DNA from: Bacteroidales bacterium
GTDB taxonomy: Bacteria > Bacteroidota > Bacteroidia > Bacteroidales > UBA932
Assembly (NCBI GenBank): GCA_017439305.1
Contig: JAFSJK010000039.1
Span: 1 to 40,314, forward strand
Length of the DNA stretch: 40,314 nt
Reading direction: 5' to 3'
Part shown: in pieces, positions 7,643 through 17,967 of the stretch
Numbering within the stretch: position 1 is the first letter of the stretch
Layout of the letters: every line of letters begins with the position of its first letter
Made by a program: the position numbers and the translations under genes
Notes under the pieces: generated by a model
Told to the model about the DNA's origin: nothing
Database searches by the model: none
Seen by the model: only the letters and a program-made list of their open reading frames with translations

Positions 7643-9637
7643 CTATTTTTTATCCAGGAATTCCACGATCGGACCGCACGGATTCAGCGAATGCGGATGA
7701 TGGGCGCAGCCGGTCTTGCCGATGAGCGAAAGCCGCCGGCAGCCGGCCAGGTCGAAGGTTCCGAACTGCTGCTCGAAGGGGACGATCGGATCCGCTGCGC
7801 CATAGACGACGATGATGGGAATCTTCTTGATCCGGTCGAAATGGTCCCGGGCATAGGTGTAGAAGGCCTCCGGGGCAATACCCTTGGCCTCCCACGCCTG
7901 GGCGGCAGACTGGACATAAGGATTGCGCGTGAACCTGGTAAGGTCGCACAGCGGGGCGTCCAGGTAGAGTTTGTCCACCCGGTCGGGGTGGTTTTCGGCA
8001 TAGAGCAGGGAGAACCATCCGCCCCGGCTCAGGCCCTCCAGGACCACTTTCTTCGACAGGCCATGCTTCTTGCGTGCATAATCCGCGAATTCCGTGAAGG
8101 CATCCTGTGCATCCGGAGAGGCATATTCGTCCATCAGGTCTAGCAGGCCGAAGGACCAGCCCCGCGCGAGAAGGGTGTCATCTACCTGGGCGAAAGCGCC
8201 GATGAAGGCCGGCCGGGCGATCCAGCGCCCGTTCGCCCCCGGCGGGACGATGAAGACGGCGCGGCGGCCGCGGATGACGGTTTCCTCCACAGTAAAGCCT
8301 TTTTCGGCATAGATCTGCTCCCAGGGTTTGTAGGGCGGGTTTTCGACCGCCCTTTCCGGCATCTTCGGGTCCAAAGGCCGTTCACCGCGGAGCATCCGGG
8401 CACCTTCCCCGGTCAGGAAAAGATAGTGGTCGGACGGTTTCCCGTCCATTCCCACGAACTTGGCGACGGTGCTCACGGGCGGATTGTCGGTCACCTTGAA
8501 GATGGCCGTACCCTCGTTGACCTCGTCGAACATCGCCACATACAGCATCTCGGCGCCGGTCTTGACCGCCGTGTAAATCTGTGACCAGTAGAACTTTCCG
8601 CCTTGACGGGGGATGCTCGCGAGCGGCTTTTCTCCGCCGATATCGTTCATGTCGTCCCCGCCCCGGCTCAGGTTGTACCAGCTGAAGCCGGGATACACCA
8701 GCGGGACATATTCCACCCCGTTCGCCGCGCACCATTCCATGTCCTTGCGGATCATGTCGGCATAGCGGTTCATCTCGAAATGCAGCAGCGGCGTGAAGCG
8801 CTGGACCATCCAGGGCAGGACCAGGTCGGCCATCCGGATCAGATCGTGCAGATAAGGGTCCTGGACGCAGTCGCTGAAGAGCTCCCGCCAATAGGTAGGA
8901 ACGCCCAGCATCACGCTGCAGCCGCCGTATTCGGGATCGTTGTGAAGAAAGTCGATGAGCTCCGCCAACTTGATGTCCCGGATGTCATACGGGCGGTCCG
9001 GAAAACCGACGCCCCAGATGACCACAAGGGGTTTCCCGTTATGGTACAGATACTGGTTCGGCCGGCTGTACGATGTGACTTTCAGGCTGTCTACCAGGAA
9101 CTTCCAGTCGTCGATGAGCAGCGTGCAGTCCTCGCTCCGGTTCGGGTCCAGGCCCGAAAGGTCATACATCACCGAAATGGCGCGGCCGTTCTCTCCGGCA
9201 TACTTCAGCGCGTGGCGGAGTACCGTCACGGAATGCTGACGGGAGCCGTGCCGAGGCCGGCAACTTCCGTAGAAACGCTGCAGGAACACGCCGTCCAGCC
9301 CATACTCCCGCATCCACCGGAAATGCGTTGCGACCGTCTGCTCGTCGTCTGAGCAGAAGAACCGCGCCGTGGAACCGTCGGACATCTTGAGTCCCGTCGG
9401 ATACGTGTGCTCGTACTCGCTCACGTCCGGCCACATGTCGATATGGATTCGGTTCTCGTCGGGGTACATCACCCCTTTGCCGTCATTGTGGAACCAGCCC
9501 TGATACCCGGCCATCACCAGTCCCTTGTAAGAGGGATGGGCCGATTCGGGATCGTGCCGGAAACCGGTGCCCTGGGCCCGGGCGCCGAGTGCCGCTGCCA
9601 TGCCCAGCAGCAAAAACAGAGTACGGAAAGCTTTCAT
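7643..9637 (-). CDS. Secreted two-domain enzyme: GH71/99-like domain fused to an alpha/beta-hydrolase
   Basis: 664 residues from MKAFRTLFLLLGMAAALGARAQ, a signal peptide probably cut after ARA. The earlier in-frame ATG (9679) lies upstream of the promoter. Residues of about 25-400 resemble the GH71/GH99-like group found in Bacteroidota: GLVMAGYQGWFHNDGKG, WMREYGLDGVFLQRFYGS and MFDEVNEGTAIFKV. From about 440 there is an alpha/beta-hydrolase with nucleophile elbow GLSRGG (Ser537), acid in GAADPIVPF (Asp616) and a histidine in CAHHPHS (646-649). The likely role is glycan cleavage coupled with removal of an ester or acyl group. Substrate is not evident and no SusC/D is adjacent. Confidence 0.88.
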   Translation of the reverse strand: MKAFRTLFLLLGMAAALGARAQGTGFRHDPESAHPSYKGLVMAGYQGWFHNDGKGVMYPDENRIHIDMWPDVSEYEHTYPTGLKMSDGSTARFFCSDDEQTVATHFRWMREYGLDGVFLQRFYGSCRPRHGSRQHSVTVLRHALKYAGENGRAISVMYDLSGLDPNRSEDCTLLIDDWKFLVDSLKVTSYSRPNQYLYHNGKPLVVIWGVGFPDRPYDIRDIKLAELIDFLHNDPEYGGCSVMLGVPTYWRELFSDCVQDPYLHDLIRMADLVLPWMVQRFTPLLHFEMNRYADMIRKDMEWCAANGVEYVPLVYPGFSWYNLSRGGDDMNDIGGEKPLASIPRQGGKFYWSQIYTAVKTGAEMLYVAMFDEVNEGTAIFKVTDNPPVSTVAKFVGMDGKPSDHYLFLTGEGARMLRGERPLDPKMPERAVENPPYKPWEQIYAEKGFTVEETVIRGRRAVFIVPPGANGRWIARPAFIGAFAQVDDTLLARGWSFGLLDLMDEYASPDAQDAFTEFADYARKKHGLSKKVVLEGLSRGGWFSLLYAENHPDRVDKLYLDAPLCDLTRFTRNPYVQSAAQAWEAKGIAPEAFYTYARDHFDRIKKIPIIVVYGAADPIVPFEQQFGTFDLAGCRRLSLIGKTGCAHHPHSLNPCGPIVEFLDKK

Positions 9638-9653
9638 GTCGCCTTTTTTCTGC

Positions 9654-9661
9654 CAAAGATA
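9654..9661 (-). promoter_or_regulatory. -7 element of the GH71/99-esterase gene
   Basis: CAAAGATA on the plus strand reads TATCTTTG on the minus strand, 16 bases ahead of the ATG at 9637. The 92-base gap from the radical SAM gene suggests separate transcription. The -33 element is not clear. Confidence 0.55.
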
Positions 9662-9729
9662 AAGGCATCCCCTTTCCAAATGCCTTAACCCATCCTTAAA
9701 AAAGGCTTAAATGCCGGGGCCTGTGGAAA

Positions 9730-10785
9730 TTACGGTCCGAGCGTCTTGGAATAATGGCACTGGAGCACCTCCGGGGAGGGACCATGCCAGTTGTGCATGC
9801 CGCCGCCGAGGCAGTTGCGCCATTCCCGGCAGCCGGCGCAGCGGCCCGTCCGGGCCCAGCTGCGGTCGCGGAACGGCTGGAAGCGCTGCTCCCACACTTC
9901 GTAGAGATTATCCTCATAGATGCTGCCCTGCGAGAACCGGTCCCGGTCGATGTTGGGACAGGCCGAAATGCGGCCGTCGATGAGGACGGAGGCGATGTTG
10001 ATGCCGGCGTGGCAGAAATACCGCACGGGCCGGACCTTCTCCTCGTAGCGCCCGAGGTATCCTTCGCAGCTGAAAGTGACAAGCATCGGACCGCCCTCCT
10101 CCCGTTTTTCCCGGATGAAGTCCATCAACTGGACGAATTCCGCGTCGGAGAGCAGCATGTCGGGATCCGACGCCGCCCGGCCGATGGGGATGATGGTGAA
10201 TAGTCGCCACTGTTTCAGGCCCATGCCCTTGAGCAGGTCGTACATGGCCGGCAATTCCCCAAGGTTCCGCTTGTTCACGCAGGTGACGACGTCGGCGTTG
10301 AGGCGTGGCTCCCGGGCGAACAGGTCGATGGCGCTAAGAACCCGCCGGTAGCTTCCCGGCATTCCCCGCATCCAGTCATGGGAGGCTTCCAGCCCGTCCA
10401 GGCTCACGGTCAGGACCCCCATTCCCGCTTCGAGGAGCCGGCGCTGCATCGCTTCGTCATAAAACCATCCGTTGGAGACCATCCCCCAGCCGAAGCCCCG
10501 CCGGCGGATTTCGCGGCCGGCCTCGACGATGTCGGGCCTCAGCAGCGGCTCCCCGCCCGTCAGCACCACCGTGAAGCCCTTGGGCCGGTGCTTCTGCGGA
10601 ATTGTGTCCAGCGCCCCGAGGAAATCCTCCAGCGGCATATCCTTCTCCCGGCTCTGCACGGAGCAGTCGCTCCCGCAGTGACGGCAATGGAAATGGCACC
10701 GCGTGGTGCACTCCCAGAACAGGTAGTTCAGTTCGTGCACACGGGTTTCATTGTCCCGGAACAGGCGGAAAAGGAAAGGATTCAT
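9730..10785 (-). CDS. Radical SAM/SPASM protein of the rSAM/lipoprotein type
   Basis: 351 residues starting MNPFLFRLFRDNETRVHELNYL. The radical SAM cluster motif CHFHCRHC gives Cys30, Cys34 and Cys37 (CX3CX2C). Then come LTGGEPLLRPD and a C-terminal SPASM region with many cysteines (CHAGINIAS, ACPNIDRDRF, CAGCREWRNC, and a final CHYSKTL) able to bind auxiliary Fe-S clusters. SPASM enzymes modify ribosomal peptides or proteins. The N-terminus and the divergent small lipoprotein recall the TIGR04133/TIGR04134 rSAM/lipoprotein pairing as I remember it from Bacteroidota. The alternative start at 10803 overlaps the -7 box. The modification is unknown. Confidence 0.9.
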   Translation of the reverse strand: MNPFLFRLFRDNETRVHELNYLFWECTTRCHFHCRHCGSDCSVQSREKDMPLEDFLGALDTIPQKHRPKGFTVVLTGGEPLLRPDIVEAGREIRRRGFGWGMVSNGWFYDEAMQRRLLEAGMGVLTVSLDGLEASHDWMRGMPGSYRRVLSAIDLFAREPRLNADVVTCVNKRNLGELPAMYDLLKGMGLKQWRLFTIIPIGRAASDPDMLLSDAEFVQLMDFIREKREEGGPMLVTFSCEGYLGRYEEKVRPVRYFCHAGINIASVLIDGRISACPNIDRDRFSQGSIYEDNLYEVWEQRFQPFRDRSWARTGRCAGCREWRNCLGGGMHNWHGPSPEVLQCHYSKTLGP

Positions 10786-10789
10786 GCTG

Positions 10790-10797
10790 CAAAGATA
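10790..10797 (-). promoter_or_regulatory. -7 element of the radical SAM gene, leaderless geometry
   Basis: The minus strand reads TATCTTTG, ending only 4 bases before the ATG at 10785. The transcript would begin essentially at the start codon. A TTG at the -33 side is 23 bases away, slightly too far. Confidence 0.5.
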
Positions 10798-10816
10798 ATC
10801 CACGGAACCGCTTCAT

Positions 10817-10855
10817 CTTGCAAAAAAATCCGTATTTTGTGCAAGATTCCGTATT
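10817..10855. promoter_or_regulatory. Possible operator between the rSAM and lipoprotein genes
   Basis: The 111-base divergent region holds an inverted repeat, CTTGCA (10817-10822) and TGCAAG (10840-10845), with partly symmetric A/T tracts inside. Overlapping it is an 8-base direct repeat TCCGTATT at 10829-10836 and 10848-10855 (19-base period, about two helical turns). A seven-base TATTTTG at 10833-10839 could be a variant -7 box for the plus strand. The arrangement fits a site for a dimeric regulator controlling both genes. Confidence 0.4.
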
Positions 10856-10896
10856 GGACGGGATTTTAAACCCGGATAACCCAAAGAACCTGACCC

Positions 10897-11274
10897 ATGA
10901 AGTGGCTGCATAACCTTTTGAAAGGCGTTTCGCTGACCGGAGCACTGTTCGTGTTCCAGGCTTGCTATGGTACACCGCAGGATCCGTTGAATGATGAGCG
11001 GGGCGTGGCTCCGATGTCCTTTTCCCTGGTCTCCCACACAACGGGAGCACCGTTGGAAGGCATCCGGGTCCTGGTCAAGGACTGGGGGGACCTGCGTGAG
11101 ATCGGGACGACCGATGCTTCCGGCCGTTGCCGGGTGGAAATCCCTTATTACCGGAACCAGATGGGGCCTTATCTGACCTTTGAGGATCCGCAAGGGCAGT
11201 ACGGCACCAGGGACACGACGCTGGCGGACCTGCGGGAACGCGATATCGTCATCAAAATGGACGCTGTCCGATGA
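10897..11274 (+). CDS. Small lipoprotein, predicted partner of the radical SAM enzyme
   Basis: 125 residues. The signal peptide MKWLHNLLKGVSLTGALFVFQAC gives lipidated Cys23, followed directly by YGTPQDPLND, the short ACYG-type start I associate with rSAM-linked lipoproteins (TIGR04134). The rest looks like a small beta-sandwich of the carboxypeptidase-regulatory/transthyretin kind: TTGAPLEGIRVLVKDWG, IGTTDASGRCRVEIPYY. The sequence contains only two other potential modification hot spots that stand out: a single internal Cys (in SGRCRVE) and a Tyr/Asn/Gln-rich loop (YYRNQMGPYLTFEDPQGQYG). Its stop overlaps the next start (ATGA at 11271), implying coupled translation. Confidence 0.87.
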   Translation: MKWLHNLLKGVSLTGALFVFQACYGTPQDPLNDERGVAPMSFSLVSHTTGAPLEGIRVLVKDWGDLREIGTTDASGRCRVEIPYYRNQMGPYLTFEDPQGQYGTRDTTLADLRERDIVIKMDAVR

Positions 11275-11885
11275 AGAATCCGCATTTGATCGCCCTGTTC
11301 CTGCTTCTGGGATTCTCTTCCGTCGTTTACGGGCAGGAAGGATTCCGGAAGCGGTTCTCTCTGGAACTGGGTGCCGGACAGGGCCCTTTGCACATGCAGT
11401 TTGTTTCCCCTTCGTGGAGTGCGAAAAAGGTTTTGGCCGAAAAGGGTCAGCGGGCCGACACGGGTGACGGTATCTATCCGGCGATCGCCCTGTCCGGCGT
11501 CTTGCGCACTTCGCCCCGGTGGGAAACCGTCGCGACGGCCTGCGTTTCCTGGAGCCATTGCCGGATCAGGCAGTATGATACGTTCGGCATCGACCCGCAG
11601 GGGAAGCCCCGTTATGACCTCACGAAAGGAACGCCGGCCGGCTGGAAAGACCTTTCGCCCGCCTTTTCCCTGACTGTCCAGGAACGTGTCGCCTGGAATC
11701 CGGAGTGGAAGGTCCGGATGTATTCGGCCTTCGGTCTCGGCATTCCGCTCGTCGACTTTGTTCCGCTTCCGTCGCTGACGCCCGTCGGTTGCAGCTATGG
11801 CGGCGAGCACCTTTATTTTTACGCGGAAATACCTCTTTCCCCCTACGCCACCGGCTTTCACGCGGGAATAGGTTGGAGCTTTTGA
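11271..11885 (+). CDS. Outer-membrane beta-barrel protein coupled to the rSAM-linked lipoprotein
   Basis: 204 residues. The signal peptide MKNPHLIALFLLLGFSSVVYG is followed by alternating amphipathic strands such as RFSLELGAGQGPLHMQF, WETVATACVSWSH and VRMYSAFGLGIPLVDF, ending in a C-terminal Phe (HAGIGWSF), the usual barrel-assembly signal. At this size an eight-stranded barrel is plausible. No specific family is recognised. The 4-base ATGA overlap with the lipoprotein gene argues that the two proteins act together in the outer membrane, perhaps as a barrel-lipoprotein pair at the surface. Confidence 0.82.
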   Translation: MKNPHLIALFLLLGFSSVVYGQEGFRKRFSLELGAGQGPLHMQFVSPSWSAKKVLAEKGQRADTGDGIYPAIALSGVLRTSPRWETVATACVSWSHCRIRQYDTFGIDPQGKPRYDLTKGTPAGWKDLSPAFSLTVQERVAWNPEWKVRMYSAFGLGIPLVDFVPLPSLTPVGCSYGGEHLYFYAEIPLSPYATGFHAGIGWSF

Positions 11886-15807: not shown

Positions 15808-16944
15808 TCAGAAGCGTACGTTGATTTTTGCCTCCACCGACAGGTCGTAAAAGTCTCCGCGCGTATTCACTTTCGTGCGCAGCCGTCCCTGCTCTTCAGA
15901 CACTTCGGTTTCGACGCCGTGGAAGCCGAATCGGTCGTAACTGGCTGAGAGAGTGATGTTGACCCGGTTGATACTGTAGCAGAGCGCGCTCCGGGCCGTA
16001 CCGGTAAAGGCCGGTTTTCCCTGGTAGCGGACCTGGAGGATTCCATCGGCTGTCCGCTGCTCTGTCTGGATGTGGTTGTAGAAGGAGAGCATCGGGAGCG
16101 CCGTCGCATTGACTGTCAGGTTGCGCAGGCCGCCGGCCGTCTTCGGGTCGGTGGGATCGCGGTGGAACAGCACCCAGTTGAAGGAATAGCCGCCTCCGGC
16201 GGACACCTGTTGCGTCGTGTATCGCCGCAGGTCCTTGAGCCGGCTCCAAAGGGGGTCCCTATCGTCCAGGGAGAAGTCTCCCTGCAGGTATTTTGCCGTC
16301 ACCAGCCAGGATCCGGCGCTGCGGCGCTGGAGAATCCTCCCGTTGTAGGTGGCCCCAAACACGAATCTGCTGCGGTTGAAGGCATAAGTCGCGTCGAGGG
16401 TGAAGTTCCGCATTTCGCCGGGGTAGGCGGAGGCCAGGTCGACAGGCGGAAGGCCGTCGAAGGTCAGCGTTCCGACGGGATACTGGTTGATCTTGTAATA
16501 CTGGATCCGGGCCGTATAACAGGAGCCGGTCAAGCCGAAAGAAAAGTATCGGTCGTGATCCTCCTTTCTCTTGCCGACGCGGATGCCGTAACCGAGCCGC
16601 AGGGCGCCGTAGCCGGCGGCGATTCCCATTTTCCAGTAAGGACGGTTCTGGAGACCCGTTTCCATCGTTCCGGTCAGGACCTGCGGGACCGTCCCCATCA
16701 GGTCGGTCACGGTGATGTCGCTGTGCAGGTCTGCGCCCAGCCGGATGAACTGGTCCTCCTGGGCGGCGGTCCATTTGAGCGTAGGCTGGAACACGTATGT
16801 GGAGTCGAGCGTTTTGTTGCGGGCGGTCAGGCCGTTGAAAATGCTCCGGGCGGTCCGGACCACCCAGGACGGCTGCTTTTCCTGGGCGGCCGCCGTCAGG
16901 GCCCCCAGAAGCAGGACAGTTGCCAGCAGGATCCTCCTTTCCAT
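15808..16944 (-). CDS. DUF4421 family outer-membrane protein
   Basis: 378 residues from MERRILLATVLLLGALTAAAQ, a cleavable signal peptide. The upstream in-frame extension to 17085 lies within the divergent gene and is rejected. The body has the features of DUF4421 proteins of Bacteroidota: STYVFQPTLKW near the N-terminus, YGIRVGKRKEDHDRYFSFGL, and many alternating beta strands ending in Phe (SVEAKINVRF). It is predicted to be an outer-membrane beta-barrel of unknown function. It faces a membrane-anchored regulator gene across a 45-base region with overlapping promoters, so the two may be oppositely regulated. Confidence 0.87.
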   Translation of the reverse strand: MERRILLATVLLLGALTAAAQEKQPSWVVRTARSIFNGLTARNKTLDSTYVFQPTLKWTAAQEDQFIRLGADLHSDITVTDLMGTVPQVLTGTMETGLQNRPYWKMGIAAGYGALRLGYGIRVGKRKEDHDRYFSFGLTGSCYTARIQYYKINQYPVGTLTFDGLPPVDLASAYPGEMRNFTLDATYAFNRSRFVFGATYNGRILQRRSAGSWLVTAKYLQGDFSLDDRDPLWSRLKDLRRYTTQQVSAGGGYSFNWVLFHRDPTDPKTAGGLRNLTVNATALPMLSFYNHIQTEQRTADGILQVRYQGKPAFTGTARSALCYSINRVNITLSASYDRFGFHGVETEVSEEQGRLRTKVNTRGDFYDLSVEAKINVRF

Positions 16945-16952
16945 ATCCTCTG

Positions 16953-16979
16953 CAAAGATAACTTTTTTCATTATCTTTG
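16953..16979. promoter_or_regulatory. Overlapping divergent -7 elements
   Basis: CAAAGATAA (16953-16961) and TTATCTTTG (16971-16979) form a 9-bp inverted repeat separated by 9 bases. Each arm contains a TATCTTTG -7 box, one per strand, 8 and 10 bases from the respective ATGs (16944 minus, 16990 plus). The -33 region of each promoter would lie beside or under the other's -7 box, so RNA polymerase cannot occupy both at once. Confidence 0.7.
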
Positions 16980-16989
16980 TAAGGTGAAG

Positions 16990-17967
16990 ATGCGTTTTGC
17001 ATACTTGGTTTTGCTTCTTCTCGCCTTTTCCTGCGGACGGGGCGACCCGGCGCTGCATACGGCGGAACGGGTCGTGGAAGACCATCCGGACAGCGCCCTG
17101 TATATCCTGGACGGCATTTCAAGGGTCGACCTGAAGACGGACCGCGAGAAGGCAGAGTATGATTATCTGTCTGCGGAAGCCTTTTACAGGACTTATTTCT
17201 TCCTGGACGATCCCACCGAGGCGGCGCTGGAGCGGGCCTGTTTCTGGTTCGACGAGAATGGTCCCGCAATGGAACGGATGCGTGCCTGGGAGCTGATGGG
17301 TACGGTCCAGACGGCCGTGGGGCGATATGGAAGCGGGATGGTTTCCTTCCGGAAGGCCGGAGCCGTCGCGCGGGAAATCGAACGCTCTCGGAACCGGATC
17401 GGCATGCTGGCCCTGCTGATCCTGGCCGTCCTGTCCACCCTGGTCCTGTATTCCTGGGCCCGGAAGATCCAGACAGAGCGGCTGTTGGAAGAGAAGCAGG
17501 CGGAGAATGAGCGGTACATGTCCGCCGCGGAAGACCTTCAGTCCAAACTTGCGGCGATGAAAGCCGACCGGCCGAAAATCGGCGGACTGGATACCCTGGA
17601 CCGCCTGTGCGAACAGTATTATGTCTTTGAGGGAACTTCCAACCTGCAGCCTCGCATTCTCGGCGAGGTAAAGTCCATCGTGGAAGGGCTCCGGAGTGAT
17701 GCCAAGGTCCAGAAGAACCTGGAGCAGGCCCTTGACGAGCGCTCCGGCGGCGTGATGAAGCGCCTCCGCGCCGCCTTCCCCAAATGGAAGGACGAGGACT
17801 TCCTCCTGTACCTCTTCACCGCTTCCGGCTTCTCCGCCACTACCATCTCCACGCTGCTGGAGAAAGACAAACCCTACGTCTACAATCGCCTTTACCGTCT
17901 CAAGGAGCGCATCAAAGCCTCCTCATCGCCAGACAGCGGGGATTTCCTGGCGTGTCTGGAGAAGTAG
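16990..17967 (+). CDS. Membrane-anchored helix-turn-helix regulator with lipobox
   Basis: 325 residues from MRFAYLVLLLLAFSCGRGD, a lipobox-like signal (Cys15). About 120 residues of helical, TPR-like periplasmic sequence follow (HTAERVVEDHPDSALYILDGIS is typical). Then come one membrane span (MLALLILAVLSTLVLYSW, about 139-156), a coiled-coil (ERLLEEKQAENERYMSAAEDLQSKLAAMK), and a cytoplasmic end with a helix-turn-helix-like segment (FPKWKDEDFLLYLFTASGFSATTISTLLEKDKPYVYNRLYRLKERI). Similar TPR-membrane-HTH proteins are common in Bacteroidota and thought to be signalling regulators. This one has a short sensor part. It is the divergent partner of the DUF4421 gene. Confidence 0.82.
   Translation: MRFAYLVLLLLAFSCGRGDPALHTAERVVEDHPDSALYILDGISRVDLKTDREKAEYDYLSAEAFYRTYFFLDDPTEAALERACFWFDENGPAMERMRAWELMGTVQTAVGRYGSGMVSFRKAGAVAREIERSRNRIGMLALLILAVLSTLVLYSWARKIQTERLLEEKQAENERYMSAAEDLQSKLAAMKADRPKIGGLDTLDRLCEQYYVFEGTSNLQPRILGEVKSIVEGLRSDAKVQKNLEQALDERSGGVMKRLRAAFPKWKDEDFLLYLFTASGFSATTISTLLEKDKPYVYNRLYRLKERIKASSSPDSGDFLACLEK

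Follow-up and report, generated by a model that had tools for sequence, protein, structure and literature searches.

A TIGR04133 radical SAM enzyme paired with Tyr-Gly lipoproteins in Bacteroidales: a candidate splicease-like system

Introduction

Among the closest described systems are the spliceases. PlpXY cuts out tyramine at an X-Tyr-Gly site, where an alpha-ketoamide remains (PMC10533398). The site reads MYG or LYG in nature, and tags have been tested as well, PIRPLYGLPI among them (PMC10533398, PMC11002830, PMC10373908). Protease inhibition is reported for the products (PMC10373908, PMC11117315), and Scott et al. 2022 are said to have found splicing broadly across bacteria (as told in PMC10373908). 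The family named for PlpX is IPR026482 (PMC11002830). Here we analyse a stretch of 40,314 nucleotides from a Bacteroidales bacterium of rumen/gut type (assembly GCA_017439305.1, contig JAFSJK010000039.1; this whole stretch is called the window), in which a gene for a radical S-adenosylmethionine (SAM) enzyme of family TIGR04133 lies divergent from a lipoprotein gene, itself coupled to a gene for a probable beta-barrel protein. The enzyme family is sister to splicease-type maturases, and all aligned lipoproteins of the window type carry Tyr-Gly directly after the lipobox cysteine. We hold, with about even confidence, that the window enzyme is splicease-like and acts on lipoproteins at Tyr-Gly, with the signal peptide as leader.

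TIGR04133 and its lipoprotein partner TIGR04134 are hypothetical equivalogs in NCBIfam. Their names were not found in the literature searched, which did not cover the Scott et al. 2022 splicease survey; lipoproteins of TIGR04133 loci may already be included there, which we consider possible yet rather less than probable.

Results

The enzyme, lipoprotein and barrel genes of the window

The locus has the following features:

9730..10785, minus strand: TIGR04133-family radical SAM/SPASM enzyme gene, 351 amino acids (aa) from the ATG at 10785, a start picked from homologues
10786..10896, no strand: intergenic region between the divergent enzyme and lipoprotein genes, with promoters presumed from the sequence
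10897..11274, plus strand: candidate substrate lipoprotein gene, 125 aa, with a weakly immunoglobulin (Ig)/transthyretin-like mature domain
10897..10962, plus strand: lipoprotein signal peptide, residues 1-22, with conservation like that of a leader of ribosomally synthesized and post-translationally modified peptides (RiPPs), identity 0.72 against 0.33 in the mature part
10963..10971, plus strand: Cys-Tyr-Gly codons, the lipobox Cys and the candidate X-Tyr-Gly site, invariant in 79/79
11271..11885, plus strand: probable outer-membrane beta-barrel protein gene, 204 aa, with a 4-nt start/stop overlap with the lipoprotein gene

This arrangement, with the enzyme on the minus strand, the divergent 125-aa lipoprotein and the 204-aa gene overlapping it by ATGA, agrees with what an earlier note on this DNA had described. 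The open reading frame (ORF) of the enzyme reaches upstream to a GTG at 10803 (9730-10803, minus strand, 357 aa), but homologues favour the ATG (351 aa).

The enzyme scored 457.3 bits with the TIGR04133 hidden Markov model (cut-off 425) and matched Pfam PF13186 with 30.8 bits (cut-off 21.5), which bears out the family and the SPASM domain proposed in the earlier note. TIGR04085, a further model named in the note, did not appear among the 25 NCBIfam matches listed of 75. The likeness of the lipoprotein to TIGR04134, also proposed there, proved to be that of a sub-threshold relative (19.4 bits, E 0.0008, cut-off 39.8). The TIGR04134 model matches 33 of 47 aligned relatives of the lipoprotein at E up to 0.1. 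Sequence searches of the PDB gave weak transthyretin-like matches for the lipoprotein (best E 0.0088) and no lead for the enzyme, the nearest entries being BlsE, PqqE and SkfB.

Enzyme and lipoprotein form a conserved unit

Scanning named genome contigs yielded 123 relatives of the window enzyme, the best 80 of which make up the 80 related loci considered here. Lipoproteins with Cys-Tyr-Gly (CYG) were sought with a profile built from the N-terminal part of the lipoprotein. At E up to 1 they were found in 75/80 loci, L050 being counted through a partial piece at a contig edge (E 0.03), and not in L025, L047, L071, L072 and L074; in L074 the enzyme lies at a contig edge and in L025 a barrel remnant adjoins the enzyme. 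At E 1e-9 there were 78 lipoproteins in 74/80 loci: 48 stand ahead of the enzyme in the same orientation, 42 of these with their ends -7 to 39 nt from its matched start; 27 are divergent from the enzyme, and 3 follow it.

The barrel is distributed differently. A relative of it was present in 29/80 loci, directly behind the lipoprotein in 27 (26 by script, L036 by coordinates) and absent from that place in 53; the gene overlap is 4 nt in 19/26 loci. BLAST clustering of the neighbours within 3.5 kb (ORFs of 55 aa or longer) showed two recurring families, one in which enzyme and lipoprotein are merged (80 loci) and that of the barrel (24 loci); the next family reached 8/80. On these counts enzyme and lipoprotein are the unit, to which the window's own branch has added the barrel. 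Of the three-gene neighbourhood whose conservation the earlier note had proposed to check, the enzyme/lipoprotein pair thus stands, whereas the barrel was rejected as a component common to all loci. The third gene's product is a probable outer-membrane beta-barrel, judging from a signal peptide, an invariant terminal Phe and a beta-type hydrophobic alternation equalled by 20 of 1000 column shuffles; it belongs to no NCBIfam or Pfam family and had no match in the PDB sequence search.

Co-occurrence was followed in an even draw of 101 genomes of the genus, with CYG lipoproteins called by profile. TIGR04133 was present in 61/101 genomes and a CYG lipoprotein in 30/101; 29 of these 30 had TIGR04133, against 32/71 of the others (p 2e-7), and the sole CYG-positive genome without it, G061, has a completeness of 68%. 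When the count was limited to genomes with 90% completeness or more and 5% contamination or less, TIGR04133 was found in 18/18 CYG-positive genomes against 30/47 overall (p 1.9e-5); the genomes are related, so that both p-values overstate independence. In nine of the 30 genomes (G017, G023, G033, G042, G047, G049, G051, G071 and G089), assemblies being fragmented, the CYG lipoprotein and the only enzyme, one of the canonical branch, are on different contigs; G023, G047 and G051 keep lipoprotein and barrel together, away from the enzyme's contig. A class-wide draw gave TIGR04133 in 4/295 genomes, the window's own included, and the family also occurs in Parabacteroides, Phocaeicola and a Treponema.

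An invariant Tyr-Gly behind a leader-like signal peptide

We aligned 79 lipoproteins in register, the 78 relatives and the window's own, comprising 57 long and 22 short forms. Cys, Tyr and Gly are each invariant (79/79). The residues that follow vary, T in 55/79 and then P in 60/79; YGxP was rejected as an invariant of the window branch, the Pro being replaced in 19/79 and YG never. The short lipoproteins (60-76 aa) consist of a signal peptide, CYG and an acidic tail. By inspection, the window lipoprotein appears to have an n-region, a hydrophobic region and a lipobox with Cys, FQAC, which is atypical at -3 and -2, and CYGTPQDP as predicted mature start; Phe at -3 is also found in related GFSSC lipoproteins.

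Stronger conservation than in the mature part is the behaviour of RiPP leaders, and not of ordinary lipoprotein signal peptides. Here, mean identity was 0.72 in the signal peptide against 0.33 in the mature part of the long forms, and 0.77 against 0.27 in the short ones; long and short forms have the signal peptide in common (identity 0.70). The signal peptide exceeded the mature part in 99.9% of 1596 long-form pairs and in 100% of 231 short-form pairs. In contrast, the barrel proteins (26, from the same loci or the window) showed the opposite, ordinary pattern, 0.35 in the signal peptide and 0.42 in the rest, the signal peptide exceeding the rest in 26.5% of 325 pairs. Identities at the three codon positions of the lipoprotein signal peptide (0.77, 0.87 and 0.45) argue that selection acts on the protein.

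Surface placement, which the earlier note had suggested from the coupled barrel, found no support. The published surface-export signal of Bacteroidetes occupies positions +2 to +6 (PMC5080379); two acidic residues at +2 to +6 were present in 0/78 related lipoproteins, and this known signal was rejected. The note's view of the lipoprotein as the likely substrate is supported, and the likely target is now the invariant Tyr-Gly beside the lipobox Cys.

Tyr-Gly recurs in unrelated proteins of other TIGR04133 loci

We then considered 36 TIGR04133 loci that do not belong to the window branch, namely 29 from the genus (L115-L143), one of the window's own genome (L001), three of the wider class (L144-L146) and three plasmid records (L149 Parabacteroides, L150 Treponema and L152 Phocaeicola). 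L149 is from the commensal Parabacteroides distasonis and has EYGSP. The genus loci are the best-scoring ones; with the own locus they make 30 of the 53 matches at 496 bits or more. A lipoprotein-like ORF with Y[G/A]xP lies near the enzyme in 36/36 loci, 34 by script plus L126 (EYGSP) and L132 (EYGMP), and YG is present in 32/36. Over the 46 motifs of the 34 scripted loci, X is E in 19, M in 17, L in 6, C in 3 and A in 1, and Tyr is followed by G in 42 and by A in 4.

The carriers are non-homologous, being Ig/transthyretin-like proteins, short helical proteins with a C-terminal motif, or proteins with two copies, and the motif is N-terminal, internal, C-terminal (L133 LLYGVPNVPY, L145 ALYGPPSSIY) or doubled (L131, L135, L140). 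The background came from the 80 loci and the window and comprised 82 further ORFs with a lipobox and a length of 100 aa or more; in their first 60 mature residues, 0/82 have YGxP and 6/82 have YG. The lipobox pattern used here recognised none of the CYG family, so that the background measures other lipoproteins alone.

The window genome itself holds a second pair on contig 14 (G000:C14:54296-55824, L001), with a TIGR04133 enzyme of 564 bits and a TIGR04134 lipoprotein of 88 bits, and an extra 81-aa lipoprotein with KLMYGVPPGRF. The window pair resembles such canonical pairs in that its enzyme passes the family cut-off with a lipoprotein beside it, as both members do on contig 14. It differs in its sub-cut-off lipoprotein, the YG directly at the lipobox, the divergent gene order and the coupled barrel, and its enzyme falls in a separate clade. 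As a separate observation, the Treponema saccharophilum plasmid pTS1 (L150, 3797-6089) carries a TIGR04133 enzyme and a CYGMP lipoprotein in a spirochaete and adjoins an invertase-type recombinase gene; transfer out of Bacteroidota is possible.

TIGR04133 is sister to splicease-type maturases

A tree of 53 rows was built with 30 hand-picked TIGR04133 rows (the window, 12 of the 80 loci and 17 of the 36 others) and 12 TIGR04103/TIGR03913 rows. These two sets stood together on one side of a branch (100/99), the other side holding NirJ, AhbD-like, TIGR04053, MftC and PqqE enzymes and one Treponema enzyme, and a thinned tree of 42 rows again put TIGR04133 beside TIGR04103/TIGR03913 (98/98). Approximately unbiased (AU) tests rejected the grouping of TIGR04133 with NirJ/AhbD-like/TIGR04053 (p 0.012) and with MftC (p 0.042), the groups having been named after the tree was seen. 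NirJ itself was found in 0/148 genomes of the phylum. The window branch is a separate clade within TIGR04133 (99/99). Residues common to TIGR04133 and its sister clade and rare outside include a GS after the cluster motif and W199, and TIGR04103 is the second-best NCBIfam model for both the window and the contig-14 enzymes.

Partners of the sister clade carry the same kind of site. A Nostoc plasmid TIGR04103 enzyme (853 bits, cut-off 725) is flanked by a Nif11 precursor ending ALYGLPPELF, with the XYGxP motif of the TIGR04133-locus lipoproteins in its core, and by an ORF of 71 aa where PlpY would stand. The TIGR03913 GDL-motif/DUF1843 system lies in the same clade, and its peptides have YG near the N terminus in 5/8 cases (L161 2/2, L153 2/3, L151 1/3); unlike the lipoproteins, they are short and have no signal peptide. 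Next to other sister-clade enzymes we found an unannotated 35-aa ORF ending PVMYGTGVRM (L148) and a C-terminal LLYGTPPVPLY (L163). In a Bacteroidales genome, a 214-aa protein ending in two KYGYP repeats (L165, 2949-3599) lies beside a TIGR04103-like enzyme and is a candidate new splicease-type substrate.

We also note that on a Tropicibacter oceani plasmid (L159, 1206-5865) a TIGR04103/TIGR03913-type enzyme stands beside genes for trypsin-like and M23 peptidases; FYGLPPG, perhaps a chance occurrence, is found close to the N terminus of the phosphotransferase encoded upstream.

Other genes of the window

An ORF of 678 aa (7643-9679, minus strand) ends in an alpha/beta-hydrolase part (Pfam Abhydrolase_1, residues 524-579); the long N-terminal region matches no Pfam family and resembles a glycan-acting domain by impression alone. 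A DUF4421 family protein (83.9 bits) is encoded at 15808-17085 (minus strand).

Discussion

Since the sister group of the enzyme consists of splicease-type maturases, a definite chemistry can be proposed. The cytoplasmic TIGR04133 enzyme would bind the lipoprotein before export via the conserved signal peptide and act at the Tyr-Gly pair, here beside the lipobox Cys, most likely by excision of tyramine, the backbone being cut and rejoined; for PlpX the hallmark of this reaction is a change of -135.0757 Da. Sec export, lipidation of the Cys and cleavage by signal peptidase II would then follow, as on the ordinary lipoprotein route. The expected product is a protein held in the membrane by its lipid anchor, with a reactive ketoamide on or close to that anchor and, as X is the lipobox Cys in the window branch, the ketoamide would there sit on the lipidated residue. 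In the window's sub-branch, the co-produced barrel protein may hold or display the modified lipoprotein.

The comparison with PlpXY and the TIGR04103 Nif11 maturases has two sides. The SPASM enzymes are sister clades and both sets of partners have X-Tyr-Gly (YGLP in Nostoc, CYG throughout the window family), but the window substrates would be lipoproteins and have signal peptides in place of Nif11 or NHLP leaders. Several further points weigh against a splicease assignment, beyond the late naming of the AU groups. The window enzyme reaches 135.8 bits with TIGR04103, below the cut-off of 725, and this model ranks sixth among NCBIfam models for the Treponema TIGR04133 enzyme. The TIGR04133 stem is long, and treekit flags the joining of long branches. 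The placing of PlpX in TIGR04103 relies on cluster likeness and on the identity of IPR026482, which we take to be TIGR04103. No recurrent PlpY-like neighbour was found in the 80 loci by BLAST with ORFs of at least 55 aa, a search that diverged, shorter or distant genes would escape. Four of the 36 other loci (L117, L119, L123, L128; four of the six L cases) have only LLYAVPNVPY, and the remaining DUF1843-type peptides have YA (2 of 3 in L151) or YM (1 of 3 in L153); YA thus occurs in both clades and the Gly may be replaceable. There was no clear YG partner in L162, L164 and L166. Finally, the passages of the splicease literature consulted make no mention of Glu or Cys as X.

A further point lies in the enzyme itself. 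The cysteine of the SPASM CX3C motif is kept in 12/12 sister-clade rows and replaced in 30/30 TIGR04133 rows, by Gly in 29 and by Ser in one. Cys 47, 175 and 246 occur in 30/30 TIGR04133 rows, and few others have them (0-2/12, 0-2/11). Residues 47, 175, 246 and 335 of the window enzyme, with three gained cysteines and the lost SPASM one, look as if the auxiliary cluster had been re-ligated family-wide, and with such ligands the chemistry may differ from that of a splicease. Together with the YA loci, this speaks for another radical reaction at the same Tyr-Gly, leaving the backbone whole: a cross-link, hydroxylation, epimerisation, or a Tyr oxidation or decarboxylation-type reaction. Such a reaction is somewhat unlikely in our estimate, the sister clade having the XYG(xP) motif of spliceases too, and by reasoning a three-residue cyclophane would be disfavoured where Pro follows the G, as in several loci (L130, L134, L140, L145).

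The Tyr-Gly could instead be a sorting or barrel-docking signal, the enzyme having another substrate. The frequent 4-nt overlap of lipoprotein and barrel genes and the nine genomes with lipoprotein and enzyme on different contigs of fragmented assemblies would fit such a signal. Yet in most of the 80 loci the lipoprotein is not followed by a barrel, over half of the lipoprotein genes end just before an enzyme gene, lipoprotein and enzyme co-occur across genomes, and YG is C-terminal in some carriers, all of which makes this explanation improbable. A sactipeptide- or ranthipeptide-like thioether bond from the Cys of CYG, to which the invariant Cys of the window branch might point, is more improbable still and was rejected as a general Cys cross-link, for X is Glu or Met in 36/46 motifs elsewhere, so that the general site does not include Cys, and the lipobox explains its invariance in the window branch.

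For the splicease-like reading of the Tyr-Gly site, the reported activity of splicease products is the one hint at a role, and suggests that the modified lipoprotein may be a tethered protease trap. More tentatively, and we think this possible but unlikely, the lipoprotein pathway as a whole may be used as a RiPP pathway, with the signal peptide as leader, signal peptidase II as leader protease and an alpha-ketoamide at the lipidated cysteine of a lipid-anchored protein or lipopeptide; the short forms with their acidic tail would then be minimal, and the Ig/transthyretin-like and barrel-coupled forms elaborations.

TIGR04133 and TIGR04134 are orphan families, common in this genus and sparse across its class. 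If Tyr-Gly is indeed the site of splicing, they would equip membrane lipoproteins with a reactive electrophile in the backbone, and splicease chemistry would extend from secreted peptides to anchored proteins.

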